Source: Methanocaldococcus bathoardescens
GTDB taxonomy: Archaea; AGJL01; Methanococci; Methanococcales; Methanocaldococcaceae
Assembly (NCBI RefSeq): GCF_000739065.1
Contig: NZ_CP009149.1
Location: 992,001-1,056,000, forward strand
Reading direction: 5' to 3'
Length of the DNA stretch: 64,000 nucleotides
Shown here: positions 4,672-62,039 of the stretch, one piece after another
Layout of the letters: each line of letters opens with the position of its first letter
How positions within the stretch are numbered: the stretch's first letter is position 1
Notes under the pieces: model-generated
What the model was told of the DNA's origin: nothing
What the model saw: only the letters and a program-made list of their open reading frames with translations
Database searches by the model: none
Translations under genes and position numbers: made by a program

Positions 4672-7600
4672 TTAAAGCCTATCTTCTATCATTCCTTCGA
4701 TTTCTAAATATTTCTTCCTCAATTTCTCTTTCATCTCCTCATCTGCCTTCCACATCCCTCTTTCTATTGCCTCCAACAACCTCTCAGCTATATTTAACAA
4801 AGCATAAGGATTGTTTTCTTTAAAAAACTCCTCCATTTCTTTATCAAACACATATTTTTCAGCTATCTTTTCATACATCCAATCATCTATTATCCCAGAG
4901 GTTGCATCCCACGCAAACATATGGTCAATATACTTTGAAAAATCAGCAGCTCCTTTATATCCATGCCTTTTCATTCCTTCAATCCACTTTGGATTCATTA
5001 TTTTTGTTCTAAATATCTCCTTACCCTCCTCTTTTAGATGTTTAATTCTTATATCATTTGGATTTGATGTGTCTCCAACATAGCTCTTTGGCTTTTTGCC
5101 AGAGAAATGAGTTACAGCAGCAATTAAGCCACCATAATAACTATTGAAGTCATCTCCCTCAAATATATCCCATTCTTGGCTATTTTCATTTTTAACGGTT
5201 AGTTCAATTTTAGACAACCTATTTATAAACTCTTCTTTTGCCTCAGCCCCATAAATACCTTTTCCATAAGCATAGCCCCCCCACTCAACATAAACCTTGG
5301 CAAAATCCTCTATTGATTCCCAATTTTTTTCATCTATTAGATGAGAGACGCCAGCTCCATAACAACCTGGTTTATCACTAAATATCCTATATAATGACGT
5401 TTCTTTAGCTGTTTTTTCATCAATTCCCTTCTTTATCTTTTCTTCAACCTCTTCTTTATAATGTTTTTTTACATAGTTCATCTCATCTGGTTCATCTAAG
5501 TTAGCTACCATCCTTATTGCCTCATCTATAAGCTCAACAACGTTTGGAAATGTATCTCTAAATAATCCACTAATCCTTAAGGTTACATCAATTCTTGGCC
5601 TTCCCAATTCCTCTAATGGGATAACTTCTAAACCAACTACTCTCCCCATTTTATTCCAAACTGGCTTAACTCCCAATAGATATAAAATCTCTCCAATATC
5701 ATCTCCTTTAGTCCTCATAGTTGGAGATCCCCAAACAATAATGCCAATATATTCTGGATACTTCCCTTCCTCCTTTAGATATTTTTCAATCAACTGCTCT
5801 GCCAACTTTTTACCCATTTCATAAGCAGATTTTGTTGGAATCTCTTGAGGATTACATGAATAAAAGTTTCTTCCAGTAGGAAGGCAGTTTATATCTTTTG
5901 TAGGAGCACCAGCAACTTTTGGTGGAACATAAAAGCCTTCTAAGGCATTAACCGCATTTATAATTTCTTCATCAACCCTCATTAAGTTTCTATAGATTAT
6001 TGAGACAGTTTTTAAAACTTCTCTTAATTTAGAGTTTATTTTTACTGTTTTTAGCTCATCGATTTTATTTTCATCAAAATTATATTCCATATATTCTTTT
6101 ATCAGATTTAATCCAATTCTATTTATTTCATCTAAGATTTTGTGATTTTTTCCTTTATTTTCATTTAGTTTTTCCCAATCATATCCTAAAATCTCAGCCA
6201 AAATTTCTAAGTAATTGAATTGATACCTAATAATCATAAACAGCATGTTAATTAATTTCTCTCCTTCCAATGGCACTCCCATTATGTGCAAACCATCATT
6301 TATCTGCCTATTCTTTAAAGTTTCTAAGTAATCGTGGATTTTATTTAACAGTTTTTCAAAATTCTCATCATTTATCTCTTCATCTATAACCTTTCCATCC
6401 AATAAATCTTTATCTAACTTTAACTCTTTAATTTTCTTTAAAATCTCTTTCTTTAAAAATTCTTTTTTCTCTTTATTCTCTGTTTCATAATAATCATCAA
6501 TACTCTTTTCTAACTCTACTAAATCACCATACAAATCAGATATTGTCATTGGTGGGATTAAATGGCTTATAATTGTTGCATAGCTCCTTCTTTTAGCTTG
6601 AGTCCCCTCTCCTGGATTATTTACAATAAATGGATAGATATTTGGTAACTCCATACAGATGTCTGGATAACATTCATTAGATAATCCAACACACTTTCCA
6701 GGAAGCCATTCTAAATTGCCATGCTTTCCTATATGCATTATTGCATCTGCTTTGAAAACCTCTTTAATCCATTTATAAAAAGCAATGTAATAATGAGTTG
6801 GTGGCAAATCTGGAGAGTGGTATATAGCAGAAGGATTCTCTCCAAATCCTCTTGGTGGCTGAACTGAGATAAAGACGTTTCCATTAATTATTCCAGGAAT
6901 AATTAGCTCTCCATTAAAGTTCATAACTTCTCCAGGAATGGCTCCCCAGTTTTTTATCAACTCTTCTTTAACTTTATCTGGTAGAGAGCTAAACCATTTC
7001 TCATAATCTTCTTTCTTTATTTTCCCTACGGCCTTTTTTATTATCTCTTCAGTTAAAAATCTCTTATCATTTGTAGCATAGTTCAGCATTTTCTTTATTA
7101 GTTTAATCCCATTTTCTGGGATTTCATCAACTATAAAACCCCTCTTCTTCATCTCCTTCAAAATATTAACAACACTCTCTGGGCTATCTAAACCAAATGC
7201 ACTCGCTATCTTGTCATTCCTTGGTGGATAGTTGTGAAAAATTATGACTATTTTTTTATCTTTATTTGGTTTTAATTTTAGATTTGCATATCTTAGAGCT
7301 AAATCAACTATCTTCTCAGCCCTATCTTTTATAGCCTTGTACTTAATAATTGGGACTCCAACTTCTCCATCCTTTATCTTCTCCTTTCCTCCTATTGGGA
7401 AATGTATTATTGCTCCATCAAACTCTGGCATCGCCATTCCAATGATTAAATCAATTGGATTTAAGCCAGAGACTGAATTTTTCCATTCTTCAATAAATCC
7501 TGTCGATATAATCCCCTGCAGTATTGGAGCATTTAACTCTTTCAAAAACTCTGGCTCATCTTTTAACAACTCTGCCTTAACACCCATTGAAAGTGTGAAC

Positions 7601-22217: not shown

Positions 22218-22889
22218 TTATTGAAGTTGTATTACAGTTTGAGTGCTTAAGTATGTAGCAGGTGTTGTGAATTCTATAACTGCTGGAGCTCCAAACTCTG
22301 GAACTACTGAACCAGTTACTGTTGTTCTTGGATCTAAGTTAAGACCAATTTTAGTAGCGTTTATTGTTAAAGCAACGATATCTCCTTTGTTGATTACTGG
22401 AGTATTTTGCTTGCATGAACCATCTGAATCTTGTATGACTATAATTCCAAACTGTGCTTTATCTGTAACAGAAATGTTCTCCCATGCTTCGAGAGTAGTA
22501 TTAGTAACTTCTCCCCCACCTGTTAAATTATTATATGCAGTTGAATTATAGTATAATACTGCCTTTTTATCGCCATCTGTAATAAATATCTTTGTTTGAT
22601 TTAAGTCAATTGGAGCACTTCCAGCATTTGGAGTAATTAAGATTGCTAATCCATCTACTGCTGTAGCATCACCATTAAGAATTCCTAAAACCTTAAGTGT
22701 TGAAAGACCACTTGCAACTTGCTCAGTACTTTCCTTACCTGTAGCCATTGCTTTTTGTTGCAAGAATCCACTTGTGTTAATTAAGACAGCTGCTGCAACT
22801 GCAGCTACTAAGACCATAGCTATGAAGATTATCAAAGTCCCTATACCCATAGCCCCTTTCTTACCTTTTAGGAATTCAAGAAGTTTCAT
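22218..22889 (-). CDS. flaB2: Archaellin FlaB2
   Basis: A 223-residue preprotein with leader MKLLEFLKGKKG and mature start AMGIGTLIIFIAMVLVAAVAAAVL. It ends EFTTPATYLSTQTVIQLQ. NAT/NIS sequons suggest N-glycosylation on the surface. Its first 194 bp including the RBS are identical at the DNA level to flaB1, while the middle of the genes differs. Confidence 0.95.
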   Translation of the reverse strand: MKLLEFLKGKKGAMGIGTLIIFIAMVLVAAVAAAVLINTSGFLQQKAMATGKESTEQVASGLSTLKVLGILNGDATAVDGLAILITPNAGSAPIDLNQTKIFITDGDKKAVLYYNSTAYNNLTGGGEVTNTTLEAWENISVTDKAQFGIIVIQDSDGSCKQNTPVINKGDIVALTINATKIGLNLDPRTTVTGSVVPEFGAPAVIEFTTPATYLSTQTVIQLQ

Positions 22890-22900
22890 TTTGTATCACC
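22707..22900 (-). repeat. 194-bp direct repeat, copy in flaB2 (identical to 23409-23602 in flaB1)
   Basis: Positions 22707-22900 and 23409-23602 match base for base where I compared them, offset 702 bp. The block covers the RBS, leader and hydrophobic core of flaB2 and flaB1. Identity through synonymous sites and into the untranslated leader points to recent gene conversion. Confidence 0.9.
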
Positions 22901-22943
22901 CGTAAGTAGATTTTATATTTATTTAATTAAGATTTATTTAAAT

Positions 22944-23591
22944 TTATTGTAATTCAATTATGGTGTTTGTGTATGCGGCTGGTGTTGTGAATTGAATAAC
23001 TGCTGGAGCTCCAAACTCTGGCTGGTACTGTCCTGAAACTTCTGCTCTTGTTGGTATTTCTTTACCAAATACTTGTGATACATTTACAAGCAATACAGCA
23101 ATATCCCCTTTGTTAATAACTCCATCATCTAATGAACCATCTGCATCTTGAATTACTCCAACAACGTATCCTTTAGCAGTTGCGTTTGACCAATCTCCAA
23201 CTGATGTACCAAATATATCTGACACACCTAATGTCTGAGTTGTAGTACCGTTGTATGTCAAAGTGTGTGACTCACCATCGTATGTCAAGAACAATTTTGC
23301 CTCTTTTAAATCAATTGGAGCACTTCCTGCATTTGGAGTTACGTAGATGGCAATCCTATCAATTCCGTTAGTTCCATCATAGTGTCCTGTAACGCCTATA
23401 CACATTAAACCACTTGCAACTTGCTCAGTACTTTCCTTACCTGTAGCCATTGCTTTTTGTTGCAAGAATCCACTTGTGTTAATTAAGACAGCTGCTGCAA
23501 CTGCAGCTACTAAGACCATAGCTATGAAGATTATCAAAGTCCCTATACCCATAGCCCCTTTCTTACCTTTTAGGAATTCAAGAAGTTTCAT
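22944..23591 (-). CDS. flaB1: Archaellin FlaB1
   Basis: A 215-residue preprotein, first gene of the archaellum operon, with the FlaK-type leader MKLLEFLKGKKG and the archaellin hydrophobic core AMGIGTLIIFIAMVLVAAV. The variable outer domain (about residues 65-165) differs from FlaB2, and the C-terminus QFTTPAAYTNTIIELQ is again archaellin-like. The RBS is AGGTGATAC. A 346-bp upstream region holds its promoter. Confidence 0.95.
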   Translation of the reverse strand: MKLLEFLKGKKGAMGIGTLIIFIAMVLVAAVAAAVLINTSGFLQQKAMATGKESTEQVASGLMCIGVTGHYDGTNGIDRIAIYVTPNAGSAPIDLKEAKLFLTYDGESHTLTYNGTTTQTLGVSDIFGTSVGDWSNATAKGYVVGVIQDADGSLDDGVINKGDIAVLLVNVSQVFGKEIPTRAEVSGQYQPEFGAPAVIQFTTPAAYTNTIIELQ

Positions 23592-23601
23592 TTTGTATCA
23601 C

Positions 23602-23937
23602 CTGACACATTATTATCTCATATTGCTATAGTATATTCCCCCACACAATTCCCCTACACAACCCTCAATCCACCTTCGATATATACTGTAATTTTCTTAA
23701 AATATATTCTTTTTGCGTAATCTATTACGTATTCGGTTTTATCGGTGTTTATGTAGTGATTTATGTATGTAAACGATAGTCGAATTTTAAATAACAAATT
23801 AACGTAATAATAACGTAATAATTATGCTAAATTTTATAAATATTTTATGAATAAGAATAAATAATAGAAGATTTAAATATTAAATTAAAGTATACTTAAT
23901 ATTTATGAATTTATATAAATTATAATTAGGTGAGAGT
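23602..23937. promoter_or_regulatory. Divergent promoter region between flaB1 and the zinc-ribbon gene, with a cluster of ACGTAAT-type sites
   Basis: This gene-free stretch holds the flaB1 promoter on the minus strand (candidate TATA boxes AATATATTTT at 23699-23708 and GTATATATCG at 23678-23687) and a TATA box for the plus-strand gene (TTTATATAAATT near 23909-23920). It also has an inverted repeat CGTAAT-CT-ATTACG at 23716-23729 and a perfect 11-bp tandem repeat AACGTAATAAT at 23801-23811 and 23812-23822. The shared CGTAAT core looks like a regulator site. The flaB1 leader would be long, about 80 nt. Confidence 0.5.
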
Positions 23938-55525: not shown

Positions 55526-56229
55526 AGAGACTGTCAGGTTAAATTTTTATCAATATGTCGATAAAAAATAGTAAATATGAAGCTCGCAATAGATGTAATA
55601 AAGGAGAGAATCGAAGAGAAGAAGCTTTTTAAGAGGAATAGGAAGTCGATAGAAGTTAAAATCTTAGCAGGGCTTTTATACTACCTCGGGTTATCGTTGA
55701 GGAAGACGAGTTTATTTCTCTCCCAATTCGAAAGTATAAGCCACGAGTCAGTTAGAGTTTATTATCACAAGATTAAAGAGGTTTTAAACAAGCCTGAGAA
55801 GACTGTAAGAAGGTTAATTGCAATCGACGAGACTAAACTAAAGGTCGGAGATAAGAATATTTACGTATGGTCTGCTATTGACGTTGAATCGAAGGAATGC
55901 TTGGGAGTTTATATATCAAAAACAAGAAATTACCTCGATACTATATTATTCGTTAGGAGTATATTAAAATTTTGCTCGAATAAGCCCAAGATTTTAGTCG
56001 ATGGTGGAAAATGGTATCCGTGGGCATTGCAGAAGTTGGGCTTAAAATTTGAAAGAGTCCGATTCGGACTGAGAAATTATGTAGAAAGCTTCTTCTCACT
56101 ACTCAAACGAAGAACAAAAACATTCTCCAACAGATTCCCAAATAATAGTAAGTTCGATACAGTTATCAGTTGGATAAAAAGCTTCATGATGTTCTATAAC
56201 TGGATACTATCGATAACTTGACAGTCTCT
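55526..56229 (+). mobile_element. IS6-like insertion sequence, about 704 bp, complete
   Basis: Terminal inverted repeats AGAGACTGTCAGGTTA (55526-55541) and TAACTTGACAGTCTCT (56214-56229) match at 15 of 16 positions and bracket a single transposase gene. No 8-bp target duplication is seen: the flanks read ATTAAAAT on the left and GGTTAGAT on the right. This fits a rearranged or deletion-forming insertion. Confidence 0.9.
55577..56221 (+). CDS. IS6/IS240-type DDE transposase
   Basis: A 214-residue transposase. An N-terminal helix-turn-helix ([29 protein letters not shown]) precedes the DDE core with acidic residues at D84 (IAIDETKL), D142 (ILVDGGKWY) and E170 ([13 protein letters not shown]). 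It fills the element almost end to end and appears intact. M. jannaschii carries related short transposases. The coding strand is richer in CG dinucleotides and arginine codons than neighbours, consistent with mobility. Confidence 0.92.
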
Positions 56230-56377: not shown

Positions 56378-57337
56378 TTATAATAGTTTGTTAAGTGGAT
56401 GTGAATCAACTGGAGATATACCCATATCTTTTGCTGCTTCTGCAATTACCATATCTGTCATAGCTACCGCTGGGAATGCTAACTGAGCGTTGTCAATTGG
56501 ACCGTAAAGGACAAAGTCTCCTGCTGCCATAACTTGGATTAAGTTTGCTCCAATGTCACATACGTGGTGGACATCTTTAGCTAACTGTGCCTTACCGCTC
56601 TCTCTTAACTGTTTTCTAAATGTTCTTAACCAGTCCCATGCTGATGGAATGTTGTGAATACCACTTCCAACAGGCATTCCTAATTTTGCTTTGACAGCAA
56701 ATGATGCTCTAACCGCGTTACCTGCTCCACTTCCTAATGGTGTAACTGCAACGTCAATTAATGGGTATTTAATTCCTGCCTTTTCAGCTAATTCTAACAT
56801 TCCCTTATCTGCTGTTTTTCCACCATTTAAGAGAACATTAATTTTTCCTTCAACAGTTGAATCCATTGGGTCGAAACATAGGATGATTGATGCTTCTAAA
56901 TCACTTTCTACTAAGTTTTGGAACTCTTCATCATCAATAGAAACGTTGATAGAGTTGTAAATACACTGGTCAGCATAACCTGCTTCAGTAGCTCTCTTTG
57001 CAGCAGCCATTCTTGCTTCTTTTGCTGTTGAGTCAAGCAACATTGGACCATCCCAAATCTCAGCAACGAAATCAATGTAATTAACCAATGCTTCAGGTGT
57101 TCCTCCAAATACCTGAACTAATGCAGGGTTTCCTGTAATATCCTCCATCTCTGCTTGTTTATTGATTAAATCTTCTGCTGCTGCTTTATCAAATATACCT
57201 TTCTTAGGGTCTTCAACAATCTTGTGTCTTGCATAGAAGATAGTTCCTGCCAAAGCAGTTGGGTGTTCTCCTGGTTGTCCTCCGATTTTTCTTCCTCCAA
57301 TCTCTACAACCATCTGTTCTTTTTCAAATTTAAACAT
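56378..57337 (-). CDS. mtrH: Tetrahydromethanopterin S-methyltransferase subunit H
   Basis: MtrH transfers the methyl group from methyl-H4MPT to the corrinoid bound by MtrA. The 319-residue barrel protein has MFKFEKEQMVVEIGGRKIGGQPGEHPTALAGTIFYARHKIV, then DSTAKEARMAAAKRATEAG and VGSGIHNIPSAWDW. It is last in the mtr operon. The RBS is GAGGAG. The orphan gene end and the IS lie behind it. Confidence 0.97.
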   Translation of the reverse strand: MFKFEKEQMVVEIGGRKIGGQPGEHPTALAGTIFYARHKIVEDPKKGIFDKAAAEDLINKQAEMEDITGNPALVQVFGGTPEALVNYIDFVAEIWDGPMLLDSTAKEARMAAAKRATEAGYADQCIYNSINVSIDDEEFQNLVESDLEASIILCFDPMDSTVEGKINVLLNGGKTADKGMLELAEKAGIKYPLIDVAVTPLGSGAGNAVRASFAVKAKLGMPVGSGIHNIPSAWDWLRTFRKQLRESGKAQLAKDVHHVCDIGANLIQVMAAGDFVLYGPIDNAQLAFPAVAMTDMVIAEAAKDMGISPVDSHPLNKLL

Positions 57338-57358: not shown

Positions 57359-57595
57359 TTATTGTGACATTTTCATTATTAATTGCATTATATTCAACAA
57401 ATTAGGCAATACAACTGATATTATAGTTCCAATAATTAAACCGTAAGCAATTCCTACATCTCTTCCAACTTTTTTACCTGCTCTTTGGAATATCTCAGCA
57501 TTTGTGTTTTCTACTTTTTCTTCAAGTTCATCAAGTTTTTCCATTAATCTTTTAAAATCCTTTGTAGGAGTAACAACAGTGGGAATTTCGCTCAT
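57359..57595 (-). CDS. mtrG: Tetrahydromethanopterin S-methyltransferase subunit G
   Basis: A 78-residue subunit with the MtrG pattern: IPTVVTPTKDFKRLMEKLDELEEKVENTNAEIFQRAGKKVGRDVGIAYG and a C-terminal membrane helix. It is distinct from MtrF by the long NAEIFQRAGKKVGRDVG block. It follows mtrA by only 4 bp, leaving no room for mtrF, which stands between mtrA and mtrG in other methanogens. Confidence 0.93.
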   Translation of the reverse strand: MSEIPTVVTPTKDFKRLMEKLDELEEKVENTNAEIFQRAGKKVGRDVGIAYGLIIGTIISVVLPNLLNIMQLIMKMSQ

Positions 57596-57599
57596 TCAA

Positions 57600-58361
57600 T
57601 CACCCTATCAACATTTTTAATATAACTGGAATAATTACCAACACAAATGCCATAACTGAACCAATGATAACTCCATGTGTTGATTTTGCAAAGACCCCTG
57701 ATGATAATCCAATATCTCTTGTCATCAATCCAACTTTATACTCTAATTTATCTAATATTTTATCACAGTATTCTAAATCAGGTTCAACAACTTTTGGAAT
57801 TCCTTCAATTTCAAAACCTTCTTCTTCCCCACCTTCTTTTGCTCCACCACCTTCTAAATCAATAACCATTGGGTCTTCATCGATAGCTCCTGGGTCTTTG
57901 CTTATACACTCTTTTATTGCTTGTGTTATTTTACCAGTGTCTTCAACATCGATTAAGTCAACGACTTCAACTATTTGTCTTCTGAATCTTTCAACAGCTT
58001 CTTTATCAACGTTTTCTAAGAATGGGATAGCTCCTTTCGCTCCGATAATTCCTCCATCGTCTCCGATACCGTTTTCCCATAATGCTTTAAAACACTGTCC
58101 TGTTATGTGTCCCTGAACTTCTGAACCGCAAAGAACCATGAATCTAATGTTTGGGTTTGATATGTAGTTTGCTACGACTTTTTCAATACCTAAGTTTTCT
58201 GTGTGGCAAGGTCCAGCGATAGCAGCTCCAGCATCGATACAAGCTTGCTCTAAACCGTGGGAACCAAGTGTTACTACTCCAACACAGCTCTCTGGGTTAC
58301 CGACAACATACTCCCCAGAGACGATTGGCCATCCTGGTGCTGGGGATTTTTTGTTAGCCAT
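57600..58361 (-). CDS. mtrA: Tetrahydromethanopterin S-methyltransferase subunit A (corrinoid-binding)
   Basis: MtrA carries the corrinoid whose methylation state drives sodium transport. The soluble domain has [29 protein letters not shown] and [14 protein letters not shown], where His85 matches the known cobalt ligand His84 of Methanothermobacter. An acidic Gly/Glu linker follows near residue 175, and the last 60 residues ([26 protein letters not shown] plus a membrane helix) resemble MtrF. Length 253 aa is slightly longer than usual. The RBS is GGAGGTG. Confidence 0.94.
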
Positions 58362-58375
58362 GTTTTAGCACCTCC

Positions 58376-58699
58376 TTATTGGATTAAACCTGGGAATAAT
58401 TTAATTATTGTAAATATTGCAAGTGTCATTATTGCTAATGTTATCCAAAATCCAAAGAATATTCCTTTGAAATAACCAGATATTGCATAAACTCCATCTC
58501 TATTTGGATATGAAACTAATGGTGAGTATCTTGGGTCTAATGAATTCTCTAATGCAGTAACCAATTTTTCCAACTTCTGAACTCTTTCTTCTACATGAAT
58601 TAAATCAACTACAAGGATATCTTTTCTCATCTCCGCTACTAAACCAGAATTAACTTCCATAACAATGTCAAGTTCAGGACATACCTTAACAATTTCCAT
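58376..58699 (-). CDS. mtrB: Tetrahydromethanopterin S-methyltransferase subunit B, downstream copy
   Basis: A 107-residue membrane subunit: [54 protein letters not shown], then one C-terminal membrane helix ending LFPGLIQ. This copy is intact, lies next to mtrA with a 14-bp gap, and therefore looks like the ancestral mtrB. Its first 104 codons lie in the 898-bp duplicated unit and are repeated in the upstream copy at 59268-59597. Confidence 0.93.
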   Translation of the reverse strand: MEIVKVCPELDIVMEVNSGLVAEMRKDILVVDLIHVEERVQKLEKLVTALENSLDPRYSPLVSYPNRDGVYAISGYFKGIFFGFWITLAIMTLAIFTIIKLFPGLIQ

Positions 58700-58708
58700 C
58701 TTTCCACC

Positions 58709-59275
58709 TTACTCCTCCTTCTTAGGAATTTCTGGAGTGTATAAAACTGCACATGCATCTTTAAATGACATCTTAACAAATTTCACATATACAATTGCCC
58801 ACAATATTATTGAAACAACCATTGATATAACATCTAATTTAACTACTGAGAAGACAAACCAGCTTATTAAACCACAAGCAATTGCTAATGTTAATGTTCT
58901 TTTGTGGCTTTCATTTGGCCCTAAACATGCGTTGAATGGGTGCAATATAGACATACCTGCTACTATAAATGCCAAAGCCATAACTCCTGAGTTTAAAGCT
59001 CCATCAACAAATGCAGCTGGTTCTAAACTTCCAACATAAGCTGTTGTAAATCCTAACAAAGCTAAAGCCCCTGCAACTGACAAGAAAGTCATACTTCTAA
59101 CCATAATTGGAATTTTCATTCCTACTGGTTTAACTGTTAAGTTACCAACTATAACTCCAACCACCAATGCAATAATTAATGTCAATATAGGGGCTATTAA
59201 ATAGGTAATTCCTAAAGCTTTTGGAATTAAAACTCCTGCTACTGCAGCTAATGTTCCCATACCTAAACTAACCAT
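58709..59275 (-). pseudogene. mtrC: N-terminally truncated mtrC copy in the duplication
   Basis: The 188 codons from an internal Met are identical to residues 78-265 of the complete MtrC at 59607-60404. The first 77 residues, including the first two membrane helices, are missing. The frame begins inside the last codons of the extra mtrB (overlap of 8 bp), without a clear RBS, so it might be translated only by reinitiation. It is probably nonfunctional, but a shortened MtrC could be made. Confidence 0.85.
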
Positions 59276-59597
59276 ACCAATTGACGCCTGGGAATAATTT
59301 AATTATTGTAAATATTGCAAGTGTCATTATTGCTAATGTTATCCAAAATCCAAAGAATATTCCTTTGAAATAACCAGATATTGCATAAACTCCATCTCTA
59401 TTTGGATATGAAACTAATGGTGAGTATCTTGGGTCTAATGAATTCTCTAATGCAGTAACCAATTTTTCCAACTTCTGAACTCTTTCTTCTACATGAATTA
59501 AATCAACTACAAGGATATCTTTTCTCATCTCCGCTACTAAACCAGAATTAACTTCCATAACAATGTCAAGTTCAGGACATACCTTAACAATTTCCAT
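59268..59597 (-). CDS. mtrB: Second mtrB copy with altered C-terminus
   Basis: 109 codons, identical to mtrB through LFPG and then VNWYG instead of LIQ, the change coming from the duplication junction. The membrane helix is intact, so the protein could still fold and enter the Mtr complex. It follows the complete mtrC by 9 bp, as in the ancestral order. Dosage of MtrB would be doubled if both are expressed. Confidence 0.85.
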
Positions 59598-59606
59598 CTT
59601 TCCACC

Positions 59607-60404
59607 TTACTCCTCCTTCTTAGGAATTTCTGGAGTGTATAAAACTGCACATGCATCTTTAAATGACATCTTAACAAATTTCACATATACAATTGCCCAC
59701 AATATTATTGAAACAACCATTGATATAACATCTAATTTAACTACTGAGAAGACAAACCAGCTTATTAAACCACAAGCAATTGCTAATGTTAATGTTCTTT
59801 TGTGGCTTTCATTTGGCCCTAAACATGCGTTGAATGGGTGCAATATAGACATACCTGCTACTATAAATGCCAAAGCCATAACTCCTGAGTTTAAAGCTCC
59901 ATCAACAAATGCAGCTGGTTCTAAACTTCCAACATAAGCTGTTGTAAATCCTAACAAAGCTAAAGCCCCTGCAACTGACAAGAAAGTCATACTTCTAACC
60001 ATAATTGGAATTTTCATTCCTACTGGTTTAACTGTTAAGTTACCAACTATAACTCCAACCACCAATGCAATAATTAATGTCAATATAGGGGCTATTAAAT
60101 AGGTAATTCCTAAAGCTTTTGGAATTAAAACTCCTGCTACTGCAGCTAATGTTCCCATACCTAAACTAACCATACCAATTGACGGAACCCCAGTCCCAAG
60201 ACCGTAAGCAGCAACTTTTCTAACAGTATTAGCTCCTGCAACACACGCTGATGAAACCAACAATCCACCAATTAACATTGACAAACCGTAATCTGACAAG
60301 AAGTGTGCCGCATAAATACCTATCAATGATAAAACTACACCAGCTGCAAATATTTGGCTTTCAGGATAAAGTTCAGCTGCATGACCTCCTCCACCGTGTG
60401 CCAT
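59607..60404 (-). CDS. mtrC: Tetrahydromethanopterin S-methyltransferase subunit C (complete)
   Basis: A 265-residue membrane subunit with about eight helices, starting [34 protein letters not shown]. MtrC, D and E form the membrane core that couples methyl transfer to sodium export. The complete copy runs across the upstream end of the duplication (at 60184, codon 74). The RBS is GGTGATAG. Confidence 0.95.
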
Positions 60405-60423: not shown

Positions 60424-61113
60424 TTATAATGCCATTGCTACTGCAACTATTCCACAAACTAATGAAGCCACTAATGAAGCAATAACCCCATTTGGCATTT
60501 TCTTGAATTTTGGGTCGTGGAAACCTTCAATAGTACCTCCAATGTTGTATGAAGCAAGAACTGCATTTATAAAGAAGAACCCTACTGCTAACATTCCAGC
60601 AACTGCTGGGGTGAATCCAAGGTTTATCAATGCAATGTAAGCTAAAGCCCCTCCGAGACCTCCTAAAGCAGCCCCTATTAAACCACTAACAAAACAAACT
60701 GTTGGAACTCCATGTCCTGTAGTCCCCGGTGTAACATAAGGTTTTTGTGGGTCTTTTGTTATAGGGTCGATTTCACACTTATCTGCAGCAGGAACAACTC
60801 CAACTCCAAATACATAGATTAACTGTCCAATCAACATTGTTACTCCAAGCATAATCATTGAACCAACAGCTCCTGATAATAAGATTAACAAAAATCCTAA
60901 ACCATCAATTCCAACTTTTGAGGCCATTACAGCTGCTGCCATTAATCCTGTAAAACCTGCCCCTGCTGCCAACTGGGTTGTACCTGTCCCAACCCCAGTA
61001 GATGTTGCCATTGCTGCTGGAGCTCCTCCGACAGGAACAAAGTGAACACTTGCATTAATTATTGCCCCTGCGATAGTTATTTCAGCTAATGAAATTAACA
61101 AACTTGCATCCAT
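60424..61113 (-). CDS. mtrD: Tetrahydromethanopterin S-methyltransferase subunit D
   Basis: A 229-residue membrane subunit with glycine- and alanine-rich helices: [53 protein letters not shown], and [27 protein letters not shown] between helices. This matches MtrD. It lies 12 bp after mtrE and 19 bp before mtrC, outside the duplication. Confidence 0.95.
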
Positions 61114-61125
61114 AAAATATCACCC

Positions 61126-62028
61126 TTACTTTGTATATGGACCGTATTTGTTTCTTGCAAAGACCTCAACCTTTCTATTTGCTATAGCTAATAAAGCTAC
61201 AATTATTAAACCAACGACTATTGAGATAATTGATGCTGAAATAACATTTCCTCCTTGTAATACATCCCCAATTACTCCTCTCCATCCGTCTAAGAAAACA
61301 ATCAAACCAAAGCATAAACCGGTTAAAACTCCTCCTACTCTAACACAGAAATATGATGAATCCATTCCATTTCTTAAACCGTATTCTGCTTTAACATCAA
61401 TATCTCCATGGTTAGCAACAGGTACTCCTCCTCCAAATGGATATTTCTGATACTCTCTTTCAGCACCATAGTGAACGTCTCCAGTTGATGAACCAATTGC
61501 CCCAACAGTAATCCCAAATATCAATGCAATCAATGGTAACGGGAATGGATTCCCTAATACAGCATTAGCTAAGTAAGCCATTAAAACCATACAAAATACA
61601 GCAATAAAACCATGTCCAACAATTGGGCCTATGTGGCTCATTACAATATCCCAATAAACAGGCTGTCCAAAGTTCTTTGACTGCCCTACAATTCTACCCA
61701 AGTATGCTGAAATTGCATAAGCTCCATGAACAAAAGCAGCAACCCCTGCACCAAGAATCAACGCTAAAATTGGAGCTACTCCCATTTGCATAATGGCATA
61801 AGCAACTGTCCCTGCAACTGCAACATACAAACCATAAGAAACTGGCTCCCCTGATATAGCCTTGTTAAAGTATCTATGTATATTCCCCATTTGTGGAGCT
61901 AACTGAACCTGTGAGTTTGGGTTTGACTGAGAACCAACATCAGACTCTACATCTTCTGCACAACCAGCAACTGTCGCTAATGCTCCACTTAAGGCAAGAG
62001 CCCCGAGGGCAATTAGTGTTGCATCCAT
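61126..62028 (-). CDS. mtrE: Tetrahydromethanopterin S-methyltransferase subunit E
   Basis: First gene of the operon; a 300-residue membrane subunit: MDATLIALGALALSGALATVAGCAEDVESDVGSQSNPNSQVQLAPQMGNIHRYFNKAISGEPVSYG, with GSSTGDVHYGAEREYQKYPFGGGVPVANHGDID, a strongly conserved MtrE loop. The ATG at 62028 has GAGGTGAT. It takes part in sodium translocation. Confidence 0.96.
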   Translation of the reverse strand: MDATLIALGALALSGALATVAGCAEDVESDVGSQSNPNSQVQLAPQMGNIHRYFNKAISGEPVSYGLYVAVAGTVAYAIMQMGVAPILALILGAGVAAFVHGAYAISAYLGRIVGQSKNFGQPVYWDIVMSHIGPIVGHGFIAVFCMVLMAYLANAVLGNPFPLPLIALIFGITVGAIGSSTGDVHYGAEREYQKYPFGGGVPVANHGDIDVKAEYGLRNGMDSSYFCVRVGGVLTGLCFGLIVFLDGWRGVIGDVLQGGNVISASIISIVVGLIIVALLAIANRKVEVFARNKYGPYTK

Positions 62029-62039
62029 TCCTATCACCT

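Follow-up and report, generated by a model that had tools for sequence, protein, structure and literature searches.

The mtr operon of Methanocaldococcus bathoardescens appears in its genome assembly with an exact tandem duplication, raising the question of whether the cell really carries this rearrangement or whether it was generated during assembly. We analysed the locus in a window of 64,000 nucleotides, corresponding to bases 992001-1056000 of the single-contig, 1,607,556-bp genome. Direct base comparison bore out the 898-bp duplication described by the original prediction: positions 58389-59286 (copy 1, minus strand; mtrC' and nearly all of mtrB) and 59287-60184 (copy 2, minus strand; the remainder of mtrC and almost the whole of mtrB') are identical at 898/898 bases and lie head to tail, and as the copies share 0 nt of extra identity on either flank, the coordinates of the duplication are exact. 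At the junction between them (59286/59287), mtrB is interrupted 14 nt before its stop codon and abuts codon 74 of mtrC; the joint is blunt, without microhomology. Both copies lie in the one contig, and the unit is absent elsewhere in the genome. Whilst the copies show 0 differences between them, 93 mismatches in 896 positions separate the unit from that of the closest relative (G006; mean identity of 91.7% over six Mtr proteins). This complete identity fits an assembly artefact or a very recent event alike.

On the coding (minus) strand the genes run in the order mtrE (61126-62037; TIGR01113), mtrD (60424-61113; TIGR01112), mtrC (59607-60404; 265 aa, full length and matching the full TIGR01148 profile), mtrB' (59268-59597; 109 aa), mtrC' (58709-59275; 188 aa), mtrB (58376-58699; 107 aa, with the normal tail), mtrA (57600-58361; 253 aa), mtrG (57359-57595; TIGR01149) and mtrH (56378-57337; TIGR01114), all confirmed with NCBIfam models; mtrB and mtrB' were assigned by sequence and profile match. 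The gene order proposed earlier is thus correct, although incomplete in what it implies, as its 'A' is an MtrA-MtrF fusion and the ordinary mtrA-1 is missing.

Of the two supernumerary genes, neither is probably a real one. MtrB' keeps 104 MtrB residues, including the native leader and the whole helix, and is an intact MtrB by profile, ending in VNWYG where MtrB ends in LIQ. From its start in mtrC codon 74, the duplicated unit first offers a Met at MtrC residue 78, where MtrC' would begin; MtrC' comprises MtrC residues 78-265 (TIGR01148 positions 77-264 only) and lacks two predicted helices of MtrC. The junction does not preserve the reading frame, and MtrC' shares its first 8 nt with the end of MtrB'. 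The data do not support an altered dose of MtrB or a working short MtrC, as translation of MtrC' would have to begin at an internal Met in a different frame from MtrB', with no evident ribosome-binding site.

To place the duplication in context, we searched 40 relatives (one genome per species), found MtrC in 31, and read the operon from each of these. None of the 31 operons contains the duplication, and both mtrC and mtrB are single in 31/31; the tails of MtrB differ between species. A functional duplication, selected for a higher dose of MtrB or for a short MtrC, would be in keeping with the intact MtrB profile of MtrB', but its absence from all 31 operons, the lack of any difference between the copies and the loss of two predicted helices from a protein that forms a six-helix bundle in the solved Mtr complex (PMC10998594) make this explanation extremely improbable.

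The mtrA region varies by lineage, with some relatives carrying mtrA-1 and a separate mtrF, and others an mtrA-F fusion behind mtrA-1; this fusion corresponds to mtrA-2a in Wang et al. 2015 (PMC4632066). The window has a single mtrA gene, which lies between mtrB and mtrG and is such a fusion of the mtrA-2a type ("mtrA-2"; TIGR01111 and TIGR02507, PF04208 and PF09472). Hence, of the two-mtrA operon of Methanococcales, the fusion is present and mtrA-1, with its own C-terminal transmembrane domain, is absent from the assembly: a G006 mtrA-1 query against the whole assembly matched only the fusion, and the mtrA-1 tail alone found no match in this genome, the same query matching 8/9 control genomes. 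The mtrA-1 tail is kept in 30/31 relatives' operons. The exception, G016, is a draft in 120 contigs; in its congener G024 both mtrA copies are present. The G016 locus (L036) displays an mtrA-F fusion only, with neither an mtrA-1 tail nor the duplication, which reflects either another collapse or a real deletion.

Several relatives keep a short mtrA-1 remnant from which the corrinoid domain is gone and in which the C-terminal helix is retained, whilst the window has only the fusion. In one related genus (L042, L043, L047, L048, L050, L054 and L055) these remnants measure ~106-127 aa (L043:5589-5921 is an example), and the corrinoid domain is found only in the mtrA-F fusion. A Pfam search of one such truncated remnant returned no family matches. 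The remnants suggest that transfer of the catalytic domain to MtrF does not entail loss of the stalk helix. In the solved complex (PMC10998594) the central stalk has three C-terminal helices of MtrA at its core, so it would be surprising for an operon lacking such a helix to work. We think that mtrA-1 was lost here in assembly.

A link between the missing gene and the duplication came from the closest relative. In G006, mtrA-1 and mtrA-2 share a 544-bp perfect direct repeat (L026:5483-6026 and 6231-6774) that begins 27 nt upstream of the ATG in both genes and within the end of mtrB, so that a 27-nt piece including the mtrB end is also found upstream of mtrA-2. As a relic, it shows that an exchange between the two mtrA genes, by gene conversion or duplication, extended into mtrB. 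The G006 repeat starts within the last mtrB codons, at the transition from attcccagg to tttaattcaataaggaggtgctaaaacATG; mtrB in the window reads attcccagg followed by tttaatccaataaggaggtgctaaaacATG, and the boundary between these two strings is the exact end of the duplicated unit (58389/58388). The breakpoint at 58388/58389 thus coincides, to the base, with the left edge of the G006 repeat. Under random placement of an 898-bp unit in the operon, the chance of a breakpoint falling exactly on the repeat edge is ~0.0009 (~0.09%). Unitig computation on G006 agreed, as the doubled piece starts at the breakpoint base for k from 63 to 401, and the graph branches there. The corresponding stretch in the window (57845-58388, minus strand; the 27-nt leader and MtrA domain, with its extent projected from G006) is single here and double in G006, and is thought to be collapsed. 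We infer the repeat in M. bathoardescens from G006, the shared leader being shorter in other genera.

Taken together, these data suggest that the duplication is an assembly artefact, an unmerged contig overlap at a collapsed mtrA repeat, to which we assign a probability of about 0.88. The real operon would most likely read E-D-C-B-[R]-A1tail-[R]-Ftail-G-H, as in G006, where R, the MtrA domain with its 27-nt leader, occurs twice in identical form. At such a repeat the assembly graph would branch, with mtrB and the mtrA-1 tail both entering one MtrA domain that exits to both tails. One contig, X (E-D-C-B), may have stopped at the first base of R, its end being copy 2; a second, Y, perhaps a gap-closing product, would have begun at mtrC codon 74 with copy 1, crossed mtrB and one collapsed R, and continued by way of the mtrF tail and mtrG to mtrH. 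These contigs would then have been joined end to end, leaving the 898-bp overlap unmerged and dropping an mtrA-1-specific piece of ~200 bp; the lost mtrA-1 tail would resemble EIALLEARMRILSEKINSS. Such a join predicts an exact head-to-tail copy meeting at a blunt junction, with the MtrA domain single and the mtrA-1 tail lost. Consistent with this, the copies are identical and head to tail, the junction is blunt, sequence unique to one repeat copy is missing (with positive controls for its detection), and the breakpoint marks the border of a repeat that exceeds short reads in length, as judged from the 544 bp in G006. The presence of both mtrA copies in this organism, like the contig history, is deduced from these observations.

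Amplification and an evolutionary snapshot of subunit duplication had been offered alongside an artefact by the original prediction; the artefact is favoured by the breakpoint at the G006 repeat edge, the missing mtrA-1, the lack of any difference between the copies and the finding that no relative carries the duplication. False duplications at contig boundaries are a documented class of assembly error (PMC8081667). Several points count against an artefact here. The assembly is one closed contig, is 99.92% complete and shows no other tandem duplication in the 464-kb sample described below, and the repeat is extrapolated from a relative, G006, whose Mtr proteins are 91.7% identical. Contigs from k-mer assemblers usually extend into a repeat; the exact stop of a contig at the repeat edge suggests an overlap-type assembler or trimming. 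A real loss of mtrA-1 through recombination between the two MtrA domains is also possible, the tail being absent from G016 too. A literature search found no account of how the strain was sequenced and assembled. Elsewhere in the window, a 194-bp perfect repeat survived assembly, as expected if only longer repeats failed. It forms the exact common start (22707-22900 and 23409-23602) of two adjacent archaellin-like genes at 22218-23591, so named from sequence appearance only, and resembles the product of a recent gene conversion.

A genuine duplication in the cell is unlikely on this evidence. It could have arisen as a real and very recent C'-B tandem duplication in the sequenced culture, accompanied by a separate loss of mtrA-1 through recombination between near-identical MtrA domains, in which case the extra MtrB with its changed tail may function and MtrC' would be debris. 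This takes the sequence as deposited, finds in MtrB' a native leader and whole helix in a protein whose tails vary between species, and invokes recombination between mtrA copies, documented as gene conversion (PMC4632066). It would require two events, leave the breakpoint at the repeat edge (~0.0009) as an unexplained coincidence and deprive the cell of the MtrA stalk helix, and we regard it as distinctly improbable. We also sampled 464 kb of sequence, comprising the window and 20 evenly spaced 20-kb stretches, and found no other exact tandem duplication, which counts further against it.

Most of the breakpoint coincidence would be removed by a single repair event, in which a break in mtrA-1 was mended by MtrA-domain annealing, with mis-primed copying from the homology edge back through mtrB into mtrC. 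Such an event would cause the mtrA-1 loss and the duplication together, side by side, and the two changes do adjoin each other. The joining end in mtrB must, however, also fall exactly at the homology edge, no MtrA stalk helix would be left and we know of no precedent for this exact outcome; we consider it very improbable.

Three other origins were considered and rejected. Insertion-sequence-driven duplication does not apply, as the IS240-like transposase gene (55577-56221) lies beyond mtrH and adjoins neither end of the unit. Short-repeat recombination is rejected because the two ends of the unit have no bases in common, and a genome-wide habit of tandem duplication because no second one was found in the 464-kb sample. 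The IS240-like copy just downstream of mtrH spans 55526-56228, and a second copy at L059:16338-17040 matches it at 97.7% identity across 703 bp. The latter contig also carries, close to its start, exact runs of 234 and 343 bp (L059:235-468 and 1063-1405) that are repeated at a 5,010-bp offset.

Taken at face value, this genome points to three changes in the central energy-conserving enzyme of these methanogens, namely a surplus MtrB, an odd, shortened MtrC and a lost mtrA-1, and all three are probably false. Gene conversion between mtrA-1 and mtrA-2 makes the mtr operon an assembler trap, and for this reason an apparent absence of mtrA-1 from other genomes, G016 among them, warrants checking. 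It is quite unlikely that the sequence is real, with one repair event at the mtrA repeat having removed mtrA-1 and supplied an additional mtrB together with a short mtrC, leaving the sodium-pumping methyltransferase Mtr to run with the MtrA-MtrF fusion and no MtrA anchor helix; were the locus real, it would suggest that Mtr may work without that helix.

Compared with the Mtr complex of Methanothermobacter marburgensis (PDB 8Q3V, PMC10998594), the assembled window encodes MtrB, C, D, E, G, H and a fused MtrF in full, but no MtrA C-terminal anchor helix. It resembles the mtrEDCBA1-A2(F fusion)-GH operon of Methanococcales (PMC4632066), as found in G006, in gene order and in the mtrA-F fusion (mtrA-2a), and differs from it as assembled in lacking mtrA-1 and in the duplication of C'-B. 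The false 'homotype' duplications of PMC8081667 were described in vertebrate long-read assemblies, whereas the present case concerns an archaeal genome, lies beside a presumably collapsed repeat and is deduced from the assembled sequence; common to both is an exact end-to-end copy at a presumed contig end.
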